This document shows positions 6,361 to 36,781 of a stretch of 64,000 nt of DNA, piece by piece. Both the position numbers and the translations under genes were made by a program. The stretch covers positions 186,001-250,000 of the forward strand of contig NZ_FMUX01000005.1 in the NCBI RefSeq assembly GCF_900101345.1. The letters are read 5' to 3'. The notes beneath the pieces were generated by a model, which was given only the letters and a program-made list of their open reading frames with translations, was not told the origin of the DNA and made no database searches. The stretch comes from Desulfoluna spongiiphila. GTDB taxonomy: Bacteria > Desulfobacterota > Desulfobacteria > Desulfobacterales > Desulfolunaceae. Within the stretch, counting starts at the first letter, position 1. Each line of letters starts with the position of its first letter.

Positions 6361-6454
6361 AATGCTAATCCTTAAATACGATGGGTTGAAAAACGGCTGA
6401 GGAGGGCTTGAAAGGAGGGATGCTTCCCTCAAAAAAAAGATCGACGCTTTTCGC

Positions 6455-6535
6455 AATTCCCTTCGCCGGTATGATCCGGATCAGGTTCGACGGGTATGAT
6501 CTCAGGCCTTAAGCCACCCCTGCGTGTGCGGCTTT
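6455..6535 (-). ncRNA. TPP riboswitch (THI element)
   Basis: On the minus strand the conserved TPP aptamer blocks appear in order: GGGGTGGCTT, GCCTGAGATC, ATACCCGTCGAACCTGATCC, and the closing GGATCATACCGGCGAAGGGA. It lies about 95 bases upstream of the thiM start. A run of eight Ts on the minus strand (6431-6438) follows shortly after the aptamer, which would suit control by transcription termination, although a clear terminator stem was not resolved by eye. TPP binding is expected to lower thiM-thiE expression. Confidence 0.95.
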
Positions 6536-28081: not shown

Positions 28082-28346
28082 GGGGCTTTTGCGTTCCTTT
28101 TTAGCTGAAAAAGCCGGGGCGAAACCGGCGATGGCCAATGGGCTGAAATGCGCGCTGTTACTGTCTGTAGTAACGAATTCGGGTGCCGGGAGCCTCCCCC
28201 GGGCTGCACCTTTCGGTAAATAACATCTTGACAACCTCATTTCCATAGATTAATTCTTCACGAAAGTTTTATCGCTAAGTGTGACGGAAGGCGATGTTCG
28301 CCTTTCGCATGTGCAGACCAAACGTCATGTGGACAAAGAGAAAAAA

Positions 28347-28436
28347 ATGATTCGATTTTTTAGCGCATTTTATTATTTTTATTACTGGTATCACATCGGT
28401 GTACCCAGGCATGCGCTGAACCACACACACTTGTAA
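28347..28436 (+). CDS. Aromatic-amino-acid leader peptide (29 residues) of the aro/phe/tyr operon
   Basis: The short frame ATG 28347 to TAA 28436 begins MIRFF and continues SAFYYFYYWYH. Within its first 15 residues there are four Phe, five Tyr and one Trp, an extreme bias unlike any other frame here. A modest AAAGAG ribosome site lies about seven bases upstream. It stands 163 bp before the first gene of an operon making chorismate, phenylalanine and tyrosine, and a terminator separates the two. This fits a transcription-attenuation leader in which ribosome stalling at aromatic codons reports shortage of charged tRNAs, as in enteric pheA and trp leaders. A preceding seven-codon frame (ATG 28326) overlaps its start as ATGA and contains a Trp codon. 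Its significance is unclear. Confidence 0.75.
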   Translation: MIRFFSAFYYFYYWYHIGVPRHALNHTHL

Positions 28437-28540
28437 GCGTAAAACAGCCGTGGGTAGACCAAACACAAGGTCCCACGGCACTCCAGATCAGCAAAAAGAA
28501 GCATCCAGGCCGTGGAAGATACCTTTCACGGCCTTTTTTT
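28399..28540 (+). promoter_or_regulatory. Attenuator region with competing hairpins upstream of the aromatic operon
   Basis: Complementary segments occur in series. GGTGTACCCA (28399-28408) can pair, with one mismatch, with TGGGTAGACC (28451-28460). GCCGTGGG (28447-28454) pairs perfectly with CCCACGGC (28471-28478). That same CCACGGC can instead pair with GCCGTGG (28509-28515), which is also the left arm of the terminator at 28508-28533. Such mutually exclusive pairing is the hallmark of attenuation. Which segment a stalled ribosome would mask cannot be settled by eye, because the aromatic codons lie more than 50 bp before the second hairpin. Confidence 0.65.
28508..28540 (+). terminator. Leader terminator (attenuator) before the aromatic operon
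   Basis: GGCCGTG and CACGGCC (28508-28514, 28527-28533) form a stem that extends through GAAG/CTTT and is followed by seven Ts. It lies 58 bp before the first structural gene and after the leader peptide, so full transcripts require readthrough. Confidence 0.85.
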
Positions 28541-28598
28541 ATGCTTCGAACCCTCGGGCGCCTCTGATGAGAGGGCCCATCCTCTGGAGGAGAACACC

Positions 28599-29405
28599 AT
28601 GAGCAGCATCGGCAAGATGATTCGTTTTGAACGGATTTTCAACAGATCCACCGGCCGCACCATCATCGTCCCCATGGACCACGGGACCACCGTGGGCCCC
28701 ATCAAGGGGGTCATCGACATGAAAACCACCATCCAAAAGGTCGCCAACGGGGGCGCCAATGCCATTGTGGAGCACAAAGGCCTCGTGGCCGAAGGGCTTC
28801 GCGGCACCGGCCCCGACATCGGCCTGATCATTCACCTTTCCGCTTCCACCTGCCTTTCCCCTTTTCCCAACGCCAAAACCCTGGTCTGCAGTGTTGAAGA
28901 GGCCATCAAGCTCGGGGCGGACGCCGTCTCCCTTCACCTGAACCTTGGCGATGCCGACGAAAAGGAGATGCTCCACGACTTTGGCCGGGTCAGCGCCGAC
29001 TGCCGCACCTGGGGCCTGCCACTTCTGGCCATGTGCTACGCACGCGGCGAAAAGATCACCAACAGCTACGATGTCAATTTCGTCAAGCATGCGGCCCGTG
29101 TGGGCGGTGAGCTGGGGGCGGACATCGTCAAGGTGAACTACACGGGGAGCCCCGAGAGTTTCCGGGAGGTCACCGAGGGGTGCAACGTGCCCGTGGTCAT
29201 CGCCGGTGGCGAAACCATGGACTCCGATCGCGAGATCCTGGAGATGGTGAAGGGCTCCATCGATGCGGGCGGTGCCGGTATCTCCATCGGTCGCAACGTG
29301 TTCCAGCATCGCGACCCCGAAAACCTTGTGAAGGCCATGCACATGATCATCCATCAGGGGCTGTCCGTGGAAGAGGCCCTGGACCATTTGGAGAGCATGG
29401 CGTGA
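28599..29405 (+). CDS. 2-amino-3,7-dideoxy-D-threo-hept-6-ulosonate (ADH) synthase, class I aldolase family
   Basis: The 268-residue protein is of the DhnA-type class I fructose-bisphosphate aldolase family: [21 protein letters not shown] near the N-terminus, Schiff-base lysine in [15 protein letters not shown], and phosphate-site [12 protein letters not shown] and [11 protein letters not shown]. Directly beside type II dehydroquinate synthase, this family makes ADH, the first step of the alternative (archaeal-type) route to dehydroquinate that starts from aspartate semialdehyde and a methylglyoxal-derived sugar phosphate. Simple aldolase function is the alternative. ATG 28599 follows GGAGGAG. 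It is the first gene of the aromatic operon behind the attenuator. Confidence 0.88.
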
Positions 29406-29542: not shown

Positions 29543-30538
29543 ATGATGAGAAAAATATGGGTGAAAGCAGACCCCTGGGACAAAGAGCTGGTGCTCACAG
29601 CCCTGGAATCCGGAGCTGATGGCATCATGGTGCCCGACGGCTGCTCGGAAAAGATCAAGGAGCTGGGCCGCGTCACCACCATCTGTGCCGACGGCGATCT
29701 GGTGCCGGGCAAGGATGTGGAAATTTTCACCATCACAAGCGGCGACGACGAGGAGGCGATCTGCCGCCTTGCCGCACAGAAGCTGGTGGTTCTGGAATGC
29801 ACGGACTGGACCATCATTCCCCTGGAGAACCTCATCGCCAAGGGAGCCGACGTGGCCGCCCTGGTGCACTCCTTTGACGAAGCCCAGCTTGCCTTCGGCA
29901 TCCTGGAAAAAGGGGTGAAGCAGGTGATGCTCGATACCCGCGACCCCATGGAACTGAAAAAGACCCTGGACCTTCTCAAGGGAGAGACCGGGAGCCTGTC
30001 CCTGGTGGAGGCGGAAGTCATTGACGTGAAAAACATCGGCATGGGTGATCGCGTCTGTGTGGACACCTGCCGGAACATGGAGAAAGGGGAGGGCATGCTG
30101 GTGGGGAATTCAAGCAGCGCGCTGTTTCTGGTCCATGCGGAGACCGTGTCCAACCCCTACGTGGCCCCGAGACCTTTCAGGGTCAACGCCGGTGCCGTCC
30201 ATGCCTACACCCGCGTTCCCGGCGGGCGCACCCGGTACCTGAGCGAACTGGAGGCCGGCGATGAGGTGGAGATTGTCAGCCACGACGGCACGATCTCAAG
30301 CGCCGTGGTGGGCCGCCTTAAAATCGAGAAACGGCCCATGCTCCTGATCAAGGCCCGCATCGGAGATAAAGGGGTGGCCACCATCGTGCAGAACGCCGAA
30401 ACCATCCGCCTGACCTCCCCCGAAGGCGAGCCCGTATCCGTCGTGACCCTTGCGCCGGGGGATCGCGTCATGGCCTTCCACGAAGAGGGCGGGCGCCATT
30501 TCGGTCACAAGGTCGACGAAACCATTACGGAGAAGTAA
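29543..30538 (+). CDS. 3-dehydroquinate synthase II
   Basis: The 331-residue protein belongs to the AroB' (MJ1249-type) family, which oxidatively deaminates and cyclises ADH to 3-dehydroquinate using NAD+. Conserved blocks include KIWVKADPWDKELVLTALESG, VGNSSSALFLVHAE, PRPFRVNAGAVHAYTRVPGGRTRYLSEL and a C-terminal GDRVMAFHEEGGRHFG. It is unrelated to the ordinary bacterial AroB, which is not seen here. The start is one of TTG 29540, ATG 29543 or ATG 29546; AAAGGA fits the ATGs. It is downstream of ADH synthase and 5 bp before pheA. Confidence 0.95.
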   Translation: MMRKIWVKADPWDKELVLTALESGADGIMVPDGCSEKIKELGRVTTICADGDLVPGKDVEIFTITSGDDEEAICRLAAQKLVVLECTDWTIIPLENLIAKGADVAALVHSFDEAQLAFGILEKGVKQVMLDTRDPMELKKTLDLLKGETGSLSLVEAEVIDVKNIGMGDRVCVDTCRNMEKGEGMLVGNSSSALFLVHAETVSNPYVAPRPFRVNAGAVHAYTRVPGGRTRYLSELEAGDEVEIVSHDGTISSAVVGRLKIEKRPMLLIKARIGDKGVATIVQNAETIRLTSPEGEPVSVVTLAPGDRVMAFHEEGGRHFGHKVDETITEK

Positions 30539-30543
30539 CCACC

Positions 30544-31686
30544 ATGGATAAGCCTCAACCCGATGGGGATCCCTTTGAAAAAGAGCTGGCCGGGCTGCGG
30601 GAGAAGATCGACGGCATCGACACCCGGATCGTGGCTCTCATCAACGAACGCCTGGACGTGAGCGCCTCCGTGGGGGACCTGAAACGCCGTTACGACAGCA
30701 AGGTCCTCGACAGGTCCCGTGAATCCCTGATCATGGACCGCATCTGCCGCCTGAATCAGGGACCGGTGGACAACACCGTGCTCCAGTACATCTTCAGCGT
30801 GATCATGGCGGCGTCCCGGGAACTCCAGAAGCCCCTGACCATCGCGTACCTGGGCCCGGAGGCCACCCACAGCCACCTGGCGGCCCTGAACCACTTTCGC
30901 CACTCGGGGCGTTTTGCCCCCTACCGCAACATTGCCGAAATTTTTGCGGAGGTGGAACGCGGAGGTTGCCAGTACGGGGTGGTGCCCGTTGAAAATTCCA
31001 TCGAGGGGGCGGTGACCCACACCCTGGACCTTCTGTTTGAGTCGGATGTCACCATCACGGCGGAGTACTACCAGACCATCAGCCACGACCTTCTCTCCCT
31101 CTGGGGGAACCTTGACGAGGTGGAGGTGGTCTACTCCCATCCCCAGCCCTTTGCCCAGTGCCGGAGCTGGCTCCAGCGGAACCTGCCCGACGTGGTGCTG
31201 GAAGAGTGCAGCAGCACGGCCCAGGCCGCCCTGAAAGCCGCGGCCAATCCCAAGTCGGCGGCCATCGCCAGCACCAAGGCCGCCCAGGTGTATGGTCTGA
31301 GGGTGGTGGAGTCCAAGATCGAGGACTCCTCCCGCAACGAAACCCGGTTCCTTGTGCTGGGCAAAGAGGAGCAGGCCCCCACCGGCGACGATAAGACCTC
31401 GGTGATGTTCGTGACCTCCCATATCCCCGGTGCCCTGTTCACCACCTTGGAGCCGGTGGCCGATGCCGGGCTCAACATGGTGAAGCTGGAGTCCCGGCCC
31501 ACCAAGCGGGAGAACTGGAGCTACTTCTTTATCATGGACATCGAAGGCCACAAAGACGACGCCCGGGTGAAGCGGGTGCTGTCCACCATGAAGGGGCTCT
31601 GCCTCTACCTCAAGGTGCTGGGCTCCTACGCCAAGGGTGCCCACGGCGGGTACCGAAGCGCCGATGAAAGCCCCCGGGAGGTATGA
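30544..31686 (+). CDS. pheA: Bifunctional chorismate mutase/prephenate dehydratase
   Basis: The 380-residue protein has an AroQ-type chorismate mutase at residues about 15-95 (LREKIDGIDTRIVALINERLD). A prephenate dehydratase domain follows from about 100 to 275 (IAYLGPEATHSHLAAL; PVENSIEGAVTHTLDL; the catalytic region ETRFLVLG). A C-terminal ACT domain (about 285-370, HIPGALFTTLEPVADAGLNMVKLESRP) normally gives phenylalanine feedback inhibition. It converts chorismate to phenylpyruvate in the cytoplasm. It starts 5 bp after DHQS II and its stop overlaps the aroE start. Placement in an operon with an aromatic leader peptide is consistent with control by Phe/Tyr supply. Confidence 0.96.
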   Translation: MDKPQPDGDPFEKELAGLREKIDGIDTRIVALINERLDVSASVGDLKRRYDSKVLDRSRESLIMDRICRLNQGPVDNTVLQYIFSVIMAASRELQKPLTIAYLGPEATHSHLAALNHFRHSGRFAPYRNIAEIFAEVERGGCQYGVVPVENSIEGAVTHTLDLLFESDVTITAEYYQTISHDLLSLWGNLDEVEVVYSHPQPFAQCRSWLQRNLPDVVLEECSSTAQAALKAAANPKSAAIASTKAAQVYGLRVVESKIEDSSRNETRFLVLGKEEQAPTGDDKTSVMFVTSHIPGALFTTLEPVADAGLNMVKLESRPTKRENWSYFFIMDIEGHKDDARVKRVLSTMKGLCLYLKVLGSYAKGAHGGYRSADESPREV

Positions 31687-32510
31687 CGGCCATGGGGATC
31701 GATGCAAAAACACGGCTTTTCGGGGTGTTCGGGAACCCCGTCACCCATAGCCTGGGGCCGGCCATGCACAACGCGGCCTTTAACGCCTTGGGTCTGAACG
31801 CCGTCTATCTTGCCTTCGGCCTGGATGAGGCCAAAGGGGCCGCAGAGGCCATGAGGCATCTGAACATGGGGGGGGCAAGCGTCACCATTCCCCACAAGAC
31901 GGATATCATGGCCCATCTGGACGAGGTGGACGACACCGCCCGGACCATCGGCGCGGTGAACACCATCGTCAACCGCGACGGAAGGCTCCTGGGGTCCAAC
32001 ACGGATGCGGAAGGGGCCATGCGGGCCCTTGAGACCCAAGGCACCATCGCCGGAAAAAAGGTGACCCTCATCGGCGCAGGCGGTGCCGCCCGCGCCATCG
32101 GGTACGGGATCCTTCAAAGAGGCGGCGCCCTTGTGATCGCCAACCGCAGCGAAGAGAAGGGGCGGGCCCTGGCACGTGACCTGGGGGCCGGGTTTTCCCC
32201 CCTTGCCTCCCTGGATCTGGACGGGGTGGATATCCTTATCAACGCCACCTCCGTGGGCATGGTTCCCCGCATCGAAGCCATGCCGGTGTCGGTGGAGGGC
32301 CTTACCCCCCGCACCCTGGTCATGGACATCGTGTACAATCCCCTGGAGACAGCCCTTCTGGCTGCGGCCCGGGCCAAGGGGTGCCCCACGGTGGACGGCA
32401 CGGCCATGTTTGTCTTCCAGGCCGTGGCCCAGTTTGAACTCTGGACCGGCCGGACGGCCCCGGTGGACCTCATGCGGCGGACCGTTCTGGAGGCATTGAA
32501 CAGTGAGTAG
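31683..32510 (+). CDS. aroE: Shikimate dehydrogenase
   Basis: The 275-residue enzyme reduces 3-dehydroshikimate to shikimate with NADPH. It shows LFGVFGNPVTHSLGPAMHNAAF, the catalytic lysine in VTIPHKTDIM, NTDAEGAMRAL and the nucleotide loop LIGAGGAARAIGYG followed by NRSEEK, whose Arg fits NADP preference. ATG 31683 overlaps the pheA stop as ATGA; ATG 31692 is better spaced from GGGAGG and may be the real start. No dehydroquinate dehydratase (aroD/aroQ) gene is found in the operon, so that step must be encoded elsewhere. Confidence 0.95.
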   Translation: MTAMGIDAKTRLFGVFGNPVTHSLGPAMHNAAFNALGLNAVYLAFGLDEAKGAAEAMRHLNMGGASVTIPHKTDIMAHLDEVDDTARTIGAVNTIVNRDGRLLGSNTDAEGAMRALETQGTIAGKKVTLIGAGGAARAIGYGILQRGGALVIANRSEEKGRALARDLGAGFSPLASLDLDGVDILINATSVGMVPRIEAMPVSVEGLTPRTLVMDIVYNPLETALLAAARAKGCPTVDGTAMFVFQAVAQFELWTGRTAPVDLMRRTVLEALNSE

Positions 32511-32684: not shown

Positions 32685-32726
32685 ATTTTTATAATCGATT
32701 TTCTCAGATCACAGATGAGGCAGACC

Positions 32727-33986
32727 ATGAGAGAGATAACGCCCGGCATGGGCAGAGACAATATGGCGGTGACCCTTCCGGGGTCCAAGAGTTACTCCCA
32801 CCGGCTGCTCATTGCAGCGGCGCTGGCAGAAGGGGAGAGCCGGATCACCGGGCTCTTGCGGAGCGAGGACACCCTGTTGACCCGTGACGCCTTAAGGGCC
32901 TTCGGGGCGGTGATTGAAGACGACGGGGAGGCCATGGTGGTGACGGGCACCGGCGGCAGGTTTCAAGCCTGTGCCGAGCCGATTTACCTGGCCAACTCCG
33001 GGACCTCCATGCGGCTGCTTACCGGCATCGCCGCCCTGGGTCAGGGAGAGACGGTCCTGACCGGGACAAAGCGCATGGGGGAGCGGCCCATTGAGGATCT
33101 CCTTGTGGCCATGCGCCAGGCAGGGACCCCGGCCCAGTGCGTGAACCCTACCCAGTGTCCCCCTGTGAAGGTGACGGGGGGCCATTTTGAGGGCGGCAAG
33201 GTGACCCTGGACTGCCGCATCAGCAGCCAGTTTCTCTCCTCCCTGCTCCTGGCCGGACCCTACGCCCCCAAGGGGATCGAGGTGACGGTGGCAGGCGAGC
33301 TGGTCTCCAGGCCCTATGTGGAAATCACCCTGGATATCATGGCCCGCTTCGGCATTGAGGTGACCCACGATGACTTTCAGGTCTTTCGGGTGGCACCGAA
33401 TCAGAGCTACAAACCGGGAACCTACCACTGCGAGCCCGACGGCTCCAATGCCAGCTACTTCTGGGCGGCGGCGGCCGTTACCGGCAAGAGCGTCAAGGTG
33501 ATGAATGTCACCAAAAAATCCCGTCAGGGGGACGTGGGCCTTGTGGACGTGCTGGAGAAGATGGGGTGCACCGTTACCCACGAGGACGACGGCACCACCG
33601 TCACCGGGGGCGAGCTGTCCGCCGTCACCGTGGACATGGCCCTGATGCCCGATGTGGTGCCCACCCTGGCCGTGGTGGCGGCCCACGCCAAGGGGACCAC
33701 GGTTATTGAGAATGTGGCCCACCTGCGTGAGAAGGAGTGCGATCGCCTGGGTTGCGTGGCCGTGGAGCTCCGAAAGATGGGCATCGACGCCGTGGCAAAG
33801 GAGAGCAGCCTGGAGATCACCGGAGGCACCCTGACGGGCTCCGAGGTGGAGACCTATGACGATCACCGCATGGCCATGAGTTTTTCCGTTGCCGGACTCA
33901 CGACCCCGGGGGTTCGGATCCTGGATCCCGGCTGCGTCAAGAAGTCTTTTCCCTCCTACTGGGACGTGTTTGATTCGTTGCAGTAA
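32727..33986 (+). CDS. aroA: 5-enolpyruvylshikimate-3-phosphate synthase
   Basis: The 419-residue enzyme joins shikimate-3-phosphate and PEP. Family motifs are complete: LPGSKSYSHRLLIAAALAEG (substrate lysine), LANSGTSMRLLTGIAAL (PEP site), RPIEDLLVAM, SSQFLSSLLLAGPYA, MPDVVPTLAVVAAHA (catalytic Asp), LREKECDRL and DDHRMAMSFSVAGL. ATG 32727 is preceded by GAGG; an ATG 12 bases earlier lacks a site. A repeat copy occupies the 216-bp gap from aroE, so read-through of that element is needed if the genes are co-transcribed. Confidence 0.97.
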   Translation: MREITPGMGRDNMAVTLPGSKSYSHRLLIAAALAEGESRITGLLRSEDTLLTRDALRAFGAVIEDDGEAMVVTGTGGRFQACAEPIYLANSGTSMRLLTGIAALGQGETVLTGTKRMGERPIEDLLVAMRQAGTPAQCVNPTQCPPVKVTGGHFEGGKVTLDCRISSQFLSSLLLAGPYAPKGIEVTVAGELVSRPYVEITLDIMARFGIEVTHDDFQVFRVAPNQSYKPGTYHCEPDGSNASYFWAAAAVTGKSVKVMNVTKKSRQGDVGLVDVLEKMGCTVTHEDDGTTVTGGELSAVTVDMALMPDVVPTLAVVAAHAKGTTVIENVAHLREKECDRLGCVAVELRKMGIDAVAKESSLEITGGTLTGSEVETYDDHRMAMSFSVAGLTTPGVRILDPGCVKKSFPSYWDVFDSLQ

Positions 33987-34051: not shown

Positions 34052-34576
34052 ATGTTCAACAACATCTACCTGACAGGCTACCGATGCACGGGCAAGACCA
34101 CCGTGGGAAGGATCCTGGCCGAGCGCATGCACCGGCATGTCGTGGATACCGACGGATTTATCGTCGGTTATGCCGGGGCCAGCGTGGATGAGATCGTAAA
34201 AAGGGACGGATGGGAAGGGTTTCGAAAGCTGGAGCGGTTTGCCCTGAGGCAGGTGGCCGATGGGGAAAAAGCGGTGGTGGCCACCGGGGGCGGGATTGTG
34301 TTGAGCCCTGAAAACAGGCGCCTCATGCGCGGCTCCGGTGTGGTGATCTGGCTCAAGGCCCGGGTCCACACCCTGGCCCGGCGCATGGCCGCCGATGAAG
34401 CCACCGCCACCCAGCGGCCGTCCCTCACCGGGGCCCGGGTGGAAGATGAGATCGCCTCGGTCCTCGCCGAAAGGGATCCTCTGTACCGTGAGGCCGCCCA
34501 CGTGACCATCGAGACCGACGGCATGTCCCCGGACGAGGTGGCCGAAGAGATCCTGCGGCAGGTGAAAGACGTTTAA
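34052..34576 (+). CDS. aroK: Shikimate kinase
   Basis: The 174-residue P-loop kinase phosphorylates shikimate with ATP. It has the Walker A sequence GYRCTGKTTVGR, DTDGFIVG with the shikimate-binding Asp, and VATGGGIVLS; a lid arginine lies in the TQRPSLTGAR segment. AroK family members usually read RPLL here, so RPSLTG is a mild variation. The start follows GCGAGGCAACCC. It sits between aroA and aroC, completing the chorismate route in the same operon. Confidence 0.93.
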   Translation: MFNNIYLTGYRCTGKTTVGRILAERMHRHVVDTDGFIVGYAGASVDEIVKRDGWEGFRKLERFALRQVADGEKAVVATGGGIVLSPENRRLMRGSGVVIWLKARVHTLARRMAADEATATQRPSLTGARVEDEIASVLAERDPLYREAAHVTIETDGMSPDEVAEEILRQVKDV

Positions 34577-34826: not shown

Positions 34827-34904
34827 TTCGTATTTATTTTGATTTTTGACCGGGCGATGCCCGACGCGAGTGGGAAAATATTCGCATACCAGGGAGATAG
34901 ATAT

Positions 34905-35966
34905 ATGGCAGGCAACACCCTTGGCGGTTTGTTTCGCATAACCACATGGGGCGAATCCCATGGAGAGGCCGTGGGCGTGGTGATCGACGGCGCTCCGGCA
35001 GGGATTCCCTTTACCGAAGGCCACGTCCAGGCGTGGCTCGATCGCCGGAAGCCCGGGAAGGGCAAGACCAGCACCTCCCGCAAGGAGCCGGATCAGGCGA
35101 AGATCCTGTCGGGGACCTTTGATGGCAAAACCACGGGGACCCCGGTCTCCATCATGGTGGCAAACAAGGACGCCCGGTCAAGTTCCTATGCCGATATCAT
35201 GGACCTCTACCGGCCCGGCCACGGGGACATCACCTACGATGCCAAATACGGGATCCGGGACTACCGGGGCGGGGGACGGGCCTCGGCCAGGGAGACCGTG
35301 GGACGGGTTGCCGCGGCGGCACTTGCCCATGAGATCCTCAACGCTGCCGGGATCTCCGTGCGTGCCGCAACCGTTGAACTCGGCGGGGTGAGGGCCCAGG
35401 CACGCGACTATGCGAGCATGGCGGAAAACCCCTACCTCTGTCCCGATGCCGAGGCCGCCGAGGCCATGGATGCCCGGGTGGATGAGGTGAGGCGTCAGGG
35501 CGACTCCCTGGGAGGGGTGGTGGAGATCATCGCCGACGGCGTGCCCGCAGGCCTGGGCGAGCCGGTATTCGAAAAACTCGACGCCGCCCTGGCCGGGGCG
35601 CTCATGGGCATCGGCGCCGTCAAAGGGGTGGAGATCGGTGACGGCTTTGAGGCGGCACGGCTGACGGGCTCTGAAAACAACGACCCCATTACCCCCGAAG
35701 GGTTTGCCAGCAACCATGCAGGGGGCGTGCTGGCAGGCATTTCAAGCGGAGCTCCCCTGGTGATGCGTGTGGGGGTGAAACCCATCCCCTCCATCACGCG
35801 GGAGCAGGCCACCATCAACACCAAAGGGGAGCCGGCAACCATTCGGACACGCGGTCGCCATGACGTGGCTGCCATTCCCCGGGTAAATGTGGTGTGCGAA
35901 GCCATGGTGGCCCTGGTCCTGGTGGATCATTTCTTAAGGCAGAGGGCGGTGGCATGGAACAGGTAA
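34905..35966 (+). CDS. aroC: Chorismate synthase
   Basis: The 353-residue FMN-dependent enzyme makes chorismate from EPSP. Signatures are present: [23 protein letters not shown] at the start, [29 protein letters not shown], and the C-terminal [16 protein letters not shown] 34905 is preceded by GGGAG nine bases upstream. It overlaps tyrA by 13 bases, which indicates coupling. It is the last common step before Phe/Tyr/Trp branching, and no trp genes are in this window. Confidence 0.97.
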
Positions 35967-36781
35967 CCCTTGGGATCGTCGGAGGAAAAGGGGGCATGGG
36001 GCGTCTTTTTGATGCCTGGTTTGTCAGGCGGGGCCACCGGGTGCTCCTGGCCGATGTGGACACGACCACCACGGCCGAAGAGCTCACCCGGCGATGCGAC
36101 CTTATCATGATCGCCACGCCCATGGATGTGGCGCCGACCGTTGCCGAAGCGCTGGGCCGCCGCATGTCCCGGGAGCAGGGGCTCTTTGACATCTGTTCCC
36201 TTAAAGAGGAGATCACCGCTGCCATGCTTGATGCCACCTCCTGCGAGGTGGTGGGGACTCACCCCATGTTCGGGCCCCACACCGATGGGCTTTCCGGGCA
36301 GAACATTATCCTTAGTCAGGGCCGGGGGGAGCGGTGGCTCACCTTCCTTGAGGCGGAATTCTCCGCAGGGGGGGCCAGGGTCTCGCGCATGACCCCCAAA
36401 GACCACGACCGGTCCATGGCCCTGGCCCAGGGGCTGACCCACGTCGTCACCATCGCCATGGGCCGGACGCTTCAAAAACTCGGGGTCACCCCGGATGATG
36501 CCCTCTCCTATGCCACGCCCATCTTCAAGCTGAAGAACGATCTCATCGGGCGCCTCTTTGCCCAGGACCCCGACCTGTATGCGGCCATGGTGGGGGACAA
36601 CCCCTATGTGGCGGAGATGGTGGAGACGTTTGGCGGTGCGCTTTCGGAGACCGCACGGGAAATGGTGGACGCCGAGCGACGCGGGGCTCTGGATTACATG
36701 GCGGATATCCGTGGGTTCCTGGGGCCCTGTTGCGAAGCCGGCCTTGAGGAATCCAACAAAATCCTGAAGTCCATGGTCTAA
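35954..36781 (+). CDS. tyrA: Prephenate dehydrogenase
   Basis: The 275-residue protein has an N-terminal Rossmann motif [36 protein letters not shown], the catalytic [12 protein letters not shown] with its histidine, and an all-helical C-terminal dimer domain. It oxidatively decarboxylates prephenate toward tyrosine. No ACT or chorismate mutase domain is attached. ADVDTT after the second strand (an acidic residue) fits NAD+ use. It overlaps aroC and closes the aromatic operon, followed by a terminator 160 bp later. Confidence 0.93.

Follow-up and report, generated by a model that had tools for sequence, protein, structure and literature searches.

A putative ribosome-mediated attenuator with an aromatic leader peptide upstream of the ADH-synthase operon in Desulfoluna spongiiphila and its relatives in Desulfobacterota

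The window analyzed here is a stretch of 64,000 nucleotides from Desulfoluna spongiiphila. It contains an aromatic operon of eight genes, all on the plus strand and identified by NCBIfam matches (Table 1). In front of the operon is a strong intrinsic terminator (28507-28540), formed by a 12-pair stem (28507-28534) with a T-run behind it. The upstream neighbor rsmE is divergent, so this terminator cannot be its own. Ahead of the terminator, the initial annotation had recognized a frame of 29 codons with ten Phe, Tyr, or Trp codons among the first 15, and had placed it upstream of an aromatic operon beginning with ADH synthase and DHQ synthase II. The frame (28347-28436) was borne out on the sequence, and the identity of the operon was confirmed by the NCBIfam matches. 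In the control region (28356-28391), 10 of 12 codons are aromatic, and five further Desulfoluna genomes carry the ORF with identical ATG and length and a near-identical sequence. TTGACA and TAATTC, separated by 17 nt (28228-28256), are a possible promoter of the leader, one that the consensus scan did not return. Elsewhere in the window, a TPP riboswitch (RF00059, 61.2 bits) was detected on the minus strand at 6440-6531.

Table 1. Leader features, predicted RNA segments, and operon genes in the window
Feature	Coordinates	Strand	Remarks
Leader peptide ORF MIRFFSAFYYFYYWYHIGVPRHALNHTHL, 29 codons, TAA stop	28347..28436	+	ORF reading; kept within genus
Control region TTT TTT AGC GCA TTT TAT TAT TTT TAT TAC TGG TAT	28356..28391	+	aromatic run conserved across Desulfobacterota
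Segment S (GGUGUACC; consensus GGUCUGCC), predicted first antiterminator arm, within leader ORF	28398..28405	+	pairs with 28453-28460
Segment b (UGCGCU), lengthens S helix	28412..28417	+	pairs with c
Segment c (AGCGUA), partner of b, shares last base of stop codon	28436..28441	+	
Segment P1 (GCCGUGGGUAGACC)	28447..28460	+	28447-28454 to P2 (OFF), 28453-28460 to S (ON)
Segment P2 (CCCACGGC)	28472..28479	+	partner P1 (OFF) or P3 (ON); without U-tract here
Segment P3 (AGGCCGUGGAAG), terminator 5' arm	28507..28518	+	28509-28515 to P2 in ON state
Segment P4 and U-tract, 3' arm of intrinsic terminator	28523..28540	+	12-pair stem, then Ts
2-Amino-3,7-dideoxy-D-threo-hept-6-ulosonate (ADH) synthase, first regulated gene (putative)	28599..29405	+	NF005556, TIGR01949 above cut-off
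3-Dehydroquinate (DHQ) synthase II	29543..30538	+	NF002627 above cut-off
Chorismate mutase-prephenate dehydratase (AroQ-PheA)	30544..31686	+	NF008865 above cut-off, and chorismate mutase domain
Shikimate dehydrogenase AroE	31683..32510	+	TIGR00507, NF001319
EPSP synthase AroA, start approximate	32715..33986	+	TIGR01356
Shikimate kinase AroL	34052..34576	+	NF002988
Chorismate synthase AroC	34899..35966	+	NF003793, TIGR00033
Prephenate dehydrogenase-like protein (TyrA)	35954..36781	+	best match PRK11199, below cut-off

The search for conserved Phe/Tyr/Trp-rich frames upstream of ADH synthase, which the initial annotation had suggested, returned a Phe/Tyr-rich leader at 30 of 30 loci in relatives sampled across the order, mostly from different families. 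At least seven aromatic residues within ten were present in 29 of the 30 real leaders and in 0.3% of 2,900 shuffles (29 relatives), and none of 1,000 dinucleotide shuffles of the 300 nt upstream in the window reached eight aromatic residues in ten. On the opposite strand at the relatives' loci, the maximum aromatic score was 6. Among 80 named ADH-synthase loci, the leader was found in most Desulfobacterota, Syntrophaceae and other classes included, and no leader was seen in the scanned stretch at a few Desulfobacterota loci, such as L107 and L116. ADH-synthase loci of Aquificota, Planctomycetes, Omnitrophota, Nitrospirota, Actinomycetota, and methanogens showed no leader (best score, 5). The feature thus goes with the lineage of the bacteria rather than with the gene family.

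Phe and Tyr codons are present in all 30 leaders and Trp codons in 22, and the order and number of the aromatic residues differ among leaders. A response to all three aromatic amino acids, as had been proposed, is thus a fair reading of the Desulfoluna leader but does not extend to the 8 of 30 relatives in which Trp codons are missing. The leaders lean toward TTT and TAT: TTT makes up 91% of their Phe codons versus 55% in the ADH synthase genes (p = 1e-10), and the corresponding TAT shares are 79% and 62% (p = 0.003). Sensitivity or an unstructured region may be the role of this lean.

Alignment of 28 leaders revealed a block, GGTCTGCC, directly 3' of the aromatic run; its complement, GGCAGACC, lies within the first hairpin, in the inner half. 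The block, segment S, is separated from the last aromatic codon by 6 nt; it reads GGTGTACC in the window and GGTCTGCC in its commonest form among the leaders. The alignment supports two folds, one (OFF) composed of b:c, P1:P2, and the terminator P3:P4, and the other (ON) of S:P1, b:c, and P2:P3. The predicted OFF and ON folds are mutually exclusive, and each covaries over the 28 leaders: 94.1% of cells are paired in the OFF fold, with two-sided changes at 14 pairs, and 91.5% in the ON fold, with two-sided changes at 13 pairs. By share of paired cells, number of two-sided changes, and covariation score alike, none of 500 shuffles came up to either fold, and pairing fell to 35-51% once the partner was slid by one to three columns. 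Both sides had changed at 6 of 8 pairs in the S:P1 helix, at 6 of 9 in the P3:P4 stem, and at 3 of 4 in b:c (29-32/57-60 of alignment A1), with compensatory pairs such as GGTTTGCC/GGTAAACC (L007), TATCTGCC/GGCGGATA (L030), and CGATCTGCC/GGCGGATCG (L024). In the window, the S:P1 helix (28398-28405 with 28453-28460) contains one G-G mismatch. Folding of the RNA at 28437-28545 gave z = -7.2, and 0 of 200 shuffles folded equally well. We also noted that 28359-28368 in Desulfoluna (UUAGCGCAUU, leader codons) can pair with 28411-28418 (AUGCGCUGA); this UUAGCGCAUU:AUGCGCUGA hairpin would mask segment b on a ribosome-free leader, a possible protection upon translation failure.

Folding with a ribosome mask, another check that the initial annotation had called for, separated the two states when done in stages, considering what can pair at a given length of emerged RNA with S free or masked. 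With RNA out to P3 and P4 not yet emerged, the probability of P2:P3 averaged 0.88 over the 28 leaders (median, 0.99) when S was free and 0.28 (median, 0.03) when S was masked; for the window, the values were 1.00 and 0.45. P1:P2 at its own stage rose from 0.44 with S free to 0.88 with S masked. The full-length RNA, in contrast, was insensitive to masking, adopting the terminator fold at equilibrium under any mask, so that the states are separable only by staged folding and the ON state must be kinetic. A kinetic ON state is the usual situation in attenuators.

Conservation and covariation strongly support the earlier proposal of leader-peptide attenuation by aromatic codons, and judging from the sequence, the element is very probably a ribosome-mediated transcription attenuator in which the position of the ribosome on the leader would set transcription of the operon. 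It combines a short translatable leader ORF, with a codon run for the operon's product, an intrinsic terminator between this ORF and the first gene, and a mutually exclusive antiterminator pairing, in which S:P1 and P2:P3 covary. Stalled and finished ribosomes are predicted to expose different segments, though for the stop codon of Desulfoluna the fit is less straightforward.

From the observed conservation, alternative helices, and gene context, we infer where the ribosome would stall, in which direction the operon would respond, and with what kinetics. As RNA polymerase moves along the leader, a ribosome would follow and translate the Phe/Tyr/Trp-rich peptide. Scarcity of charged tRNA-Phe or tRNA-Tyr (here also tRNA-Trp) would stall the ribosome in codons 4-14, leaving S, just downstream, free to capture the inner part of P1 (28453-28460). 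With P1 taken by S, P2 would pair with P3, P3:P4 would form too late, and polymerase would read through into the operon. With plentiful aromatic amino acids, the ribosome would pass S and reach the stop codon, where S would be hidden or, in Desulfoluna with its more distal stop, cut off from P1 by the intervening ribosome. S being unavailable, P1:P2 and P3:P4 would form and transcription would end near 28540. In most relatives, P1:P2 may itself act as a terminator, so that a single ribosome decision would govern two serial terminators.

The Desulfoluna stop codon is displaced downstream by about 18 nt from its usual place. A ribosome masked at the Desulfoluna TAA leaves S uncovered, and mask folding does not give the OFF state (P2:P3, 0.80 before P4 emerges); steric separation, with the ribosome between S and P1, is therefore assumed. 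A ribosome stalled on the last Trp/Tyr codons already contacts S.

The initial annotation had described a switch of three segments. Two of them, GCCGTGGG at 28447-28454 and GCCGTGG at 28509-28515, lie where it placed them, and CCACGGC is present one base away from the position given, at 28473-28479; all three are real, and the model was incomplete in that S was absent from it. Without S, a stall in the aromatic run, short of 28447, would let P1:P2 and the terminator form, so that starvation would turn the operon off. S restores the sense of the response, since an upstream stall would free S and give readthrough, and the switch is thus most likely set by stalling and not by release. Both the wrong sign obtained without S and the covarying S:P1 helix led us to reject the three-segment model; the switch predicted from the alignment has five arms and is gated by S.

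Release had been suggested on the grounds that the stop codon (28434-28436) lies only 10 nt 5' of GCCGTGGG, a distance that we confirm; given the S:P1 pairing, stalling is the more likely switch-setter. In a related reading, a ribosome at the stop codon blocks P1, releasing P2 for P3. In Desulfoluna the geometry would allow this, as a ribosome on a stop 10 nt before P1 would end at about 28446, and release timing affects basal readthrough in the trp and his models (PMC1183508). We nevertheless regard it as very unlikely, because it predicts readthrough upon complete translation, which is the wrong sign, and leaves the covarying S:P1 helix unexplained; moreover, the stop of most relatives sits 20-30 nt further upstream, at the S region.

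Equally improbable to us is nascent-peptide arrest of the TnaC or SecM type, in which the aromatic run and a GLPG tail would bind the ribosome tunnel with a free amino acid as ligand. An STGLPG tail is indeed conserved in leaders that read S in the GLP frame. Elsewhere, S is framed as VCP (L050, L060, L061) or RFAWG (L052, L053, L056), and since all three frames of S are in use among the leaders, it is the RNA and not the peptide that is conserved; the tail, explained by the S RNA, was accordingly rejected as a conserved peptide motif. No conservation of the peptide independent of the RNA constraint was found, the aromatic order varies freely, and a biosynthetic operon must be induced when amino acids run short rather than when they abound.

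Ribosome-independent sensing by a T-box or metabolite riboswitch, with the ORF incidental, would agree with the conserved structure and terminator, and yet we give it hardly any probability. The leader matched none of the Rfam families at the gathering threshold, the Phe, Trp, and His leaders and T-box included, nine loci compared with Rfam at E up to 1 gave chance matches only, besides a tRNA in one locus, and the codons of the ORF vary with the operon behind it. Attenuation combined with a trans action of the released leader RNA or peptide, suggested by analogy alone with the Sinorhizobium trp leader, where a trans role of peTrpL is described (PMC7298713), appears extremely unlikely, as conservation beyond what the switch needs was not apparent.

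Among known systems, the logic of the ribosome-mediated attenuator proposed here is closest to that of the his attenuator, of which it is a new tandem form. In the his leader, an extra hairpin before the terminator keeps the antiterminator from forming as long as no ribosome is held up in the control region (PMC1183508). The run of control codons in a leader peptide, the serial alternative hairpins, and the extra hairpin are common to the Salmonella and E. coli his attenuator and the element described here. Unlike in his, the Desulfoluna leader pools three aromatic residues, the first arm of the antiterminator is part of the terminal stretch of the ORF, the terminator stems have a GCCGUGG motif in common that lets P2 pair with either neighbor, and in 18 of 28 leaders the extra hairpin, P1:P2, doubles as a terminator. 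In these 18, P1:P2 also carries a U-tract (T at five or more of the eight bases after P2), giving two terminators in series, and the terminator 1 U-tract, facing an A-run ahead of P3, can extend the P2:P3 helix. No U-tract follows P2 in Desulfoluna, in the two members of its family that were sampled (L007, L009), or in L016, L017, and L020; in Desulfoluna, the first terminator is lost and the switch retained. The enteric pheA (PheL) and trp (TrpL) leaders likewise have aromatic control codons, a terminator before a biosynthetic gene, and a decisive ribosome position, but here the Phe, Tyr, and Trp codons are mixed and the operon covers the whole common pathway, not just a terminal branch.

In Desulfovibrio vulgaris, a putative attenuator of the aroA'-aroB'-aroQ/pheA-aroF-tyrA-trp operon, whose first two genes, as here, encode ADH synthase and DHQ synthase II, was tabulated in 2005 from the Merino database (PMC1173090 Table 7). 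The view that such control had not been described needs qualifying to this extent, and it holds in that the table entry gives no leader peptide, control codons, structure, mechanism, or taxonomic depth (PMC1173090). The open-licence papers searched contained no description of such leaders. A Pseudodesulfovibrio leader (L169) is Phe-only, with one terminator.

A covariance model, R1, applied to the order with an E threshold of 0.001, found matches in 169 of 194 genomes; at the phylum level, 129 of 297 matched, a number that includes weak matches (E of about 1e-5) and is not a tally of proven members. Of the strong or second-tier matches, 48 were read; they follow directly on Phe/Tyr/Trp or Trp codon runs, and nearly all precede aromatic genes. 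Genes behind R1 matches comprise those for ADH synthase, both DAHP synthase types, shikimate dehydrogenase, TrpE, TrpD, an aminotransferase, and PaaK, with the DAHP synthase versions belonging to genomes with the ordinary route. The ORF codons follow the operon, being WWW before trpE, Phe-rich before paaK, and Phe/Tyr/Trp before aro genes.

The genome of the window itself holds at least two further leaders of this type, both conserved in the genus. Upstream of trpE (G000:C21 near 243539-244906, minus strand; L193) are the WWW leader MAHVNQTFTLSAPFCWWWRTRLNGLPTHPLPC and a pair of serial terminators; the trpE loci L189-L192 of the genus are alike, and a GGTCTGCC-like S was seen in the genus. A second, stand-alone ADH synthase, 64% identical (G000:C30:49600-50385, minus strand; L031, also L173-L177), has the leader AFFWFFWFF, with Phe and Trp and no Tyr in the run, and a single terminator, again conserved in the genus. 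Phe-rich tandem-terminator leaders lie ahead of paaK, encoding phenylacetate-CoA ligase (L082 634-770, L091 1609-1757), which suggests that Phe supply controls this aromatic-acid activating enzyme. At L070 (1501-1629), an element with the leader MSFFYFFYFYFNRGHP precedes a gene for a PLP-dependent aminotransferase of the PRK06836 family, a candidate aromatic aminotransferase.

Taken by their sequences, these elements probably form a sizeable unnamed RNA family. We think it somewhat likely that Desulfobacterota as a phylum possess a previously undescribed family of tandem-terminator attenuators: one segment at the end of the ORF would gate two terminators, and the leader would be re-coded as Phe/Tyr/Trp, Phe/Trp, Trp-only, or Phe-rich, so that a single genome would use copies of one device to sense pooled as well as single aromatic amino acids. 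The tandem layout offers a natural experiment in switch design, the U-tract having been lost in one genus with the switch kept. For sulfate reducers with the archaeal-type ADH route, our analysis provides a testable account of how the aromatic pathway may be controlled, and leader-peptide attenuation would constitute a phylum-wide regulatory layer beyond the groups in which it has been worked out. The family could enter Rfam and help to annotate small leader ORFs overlooked by gene finders.
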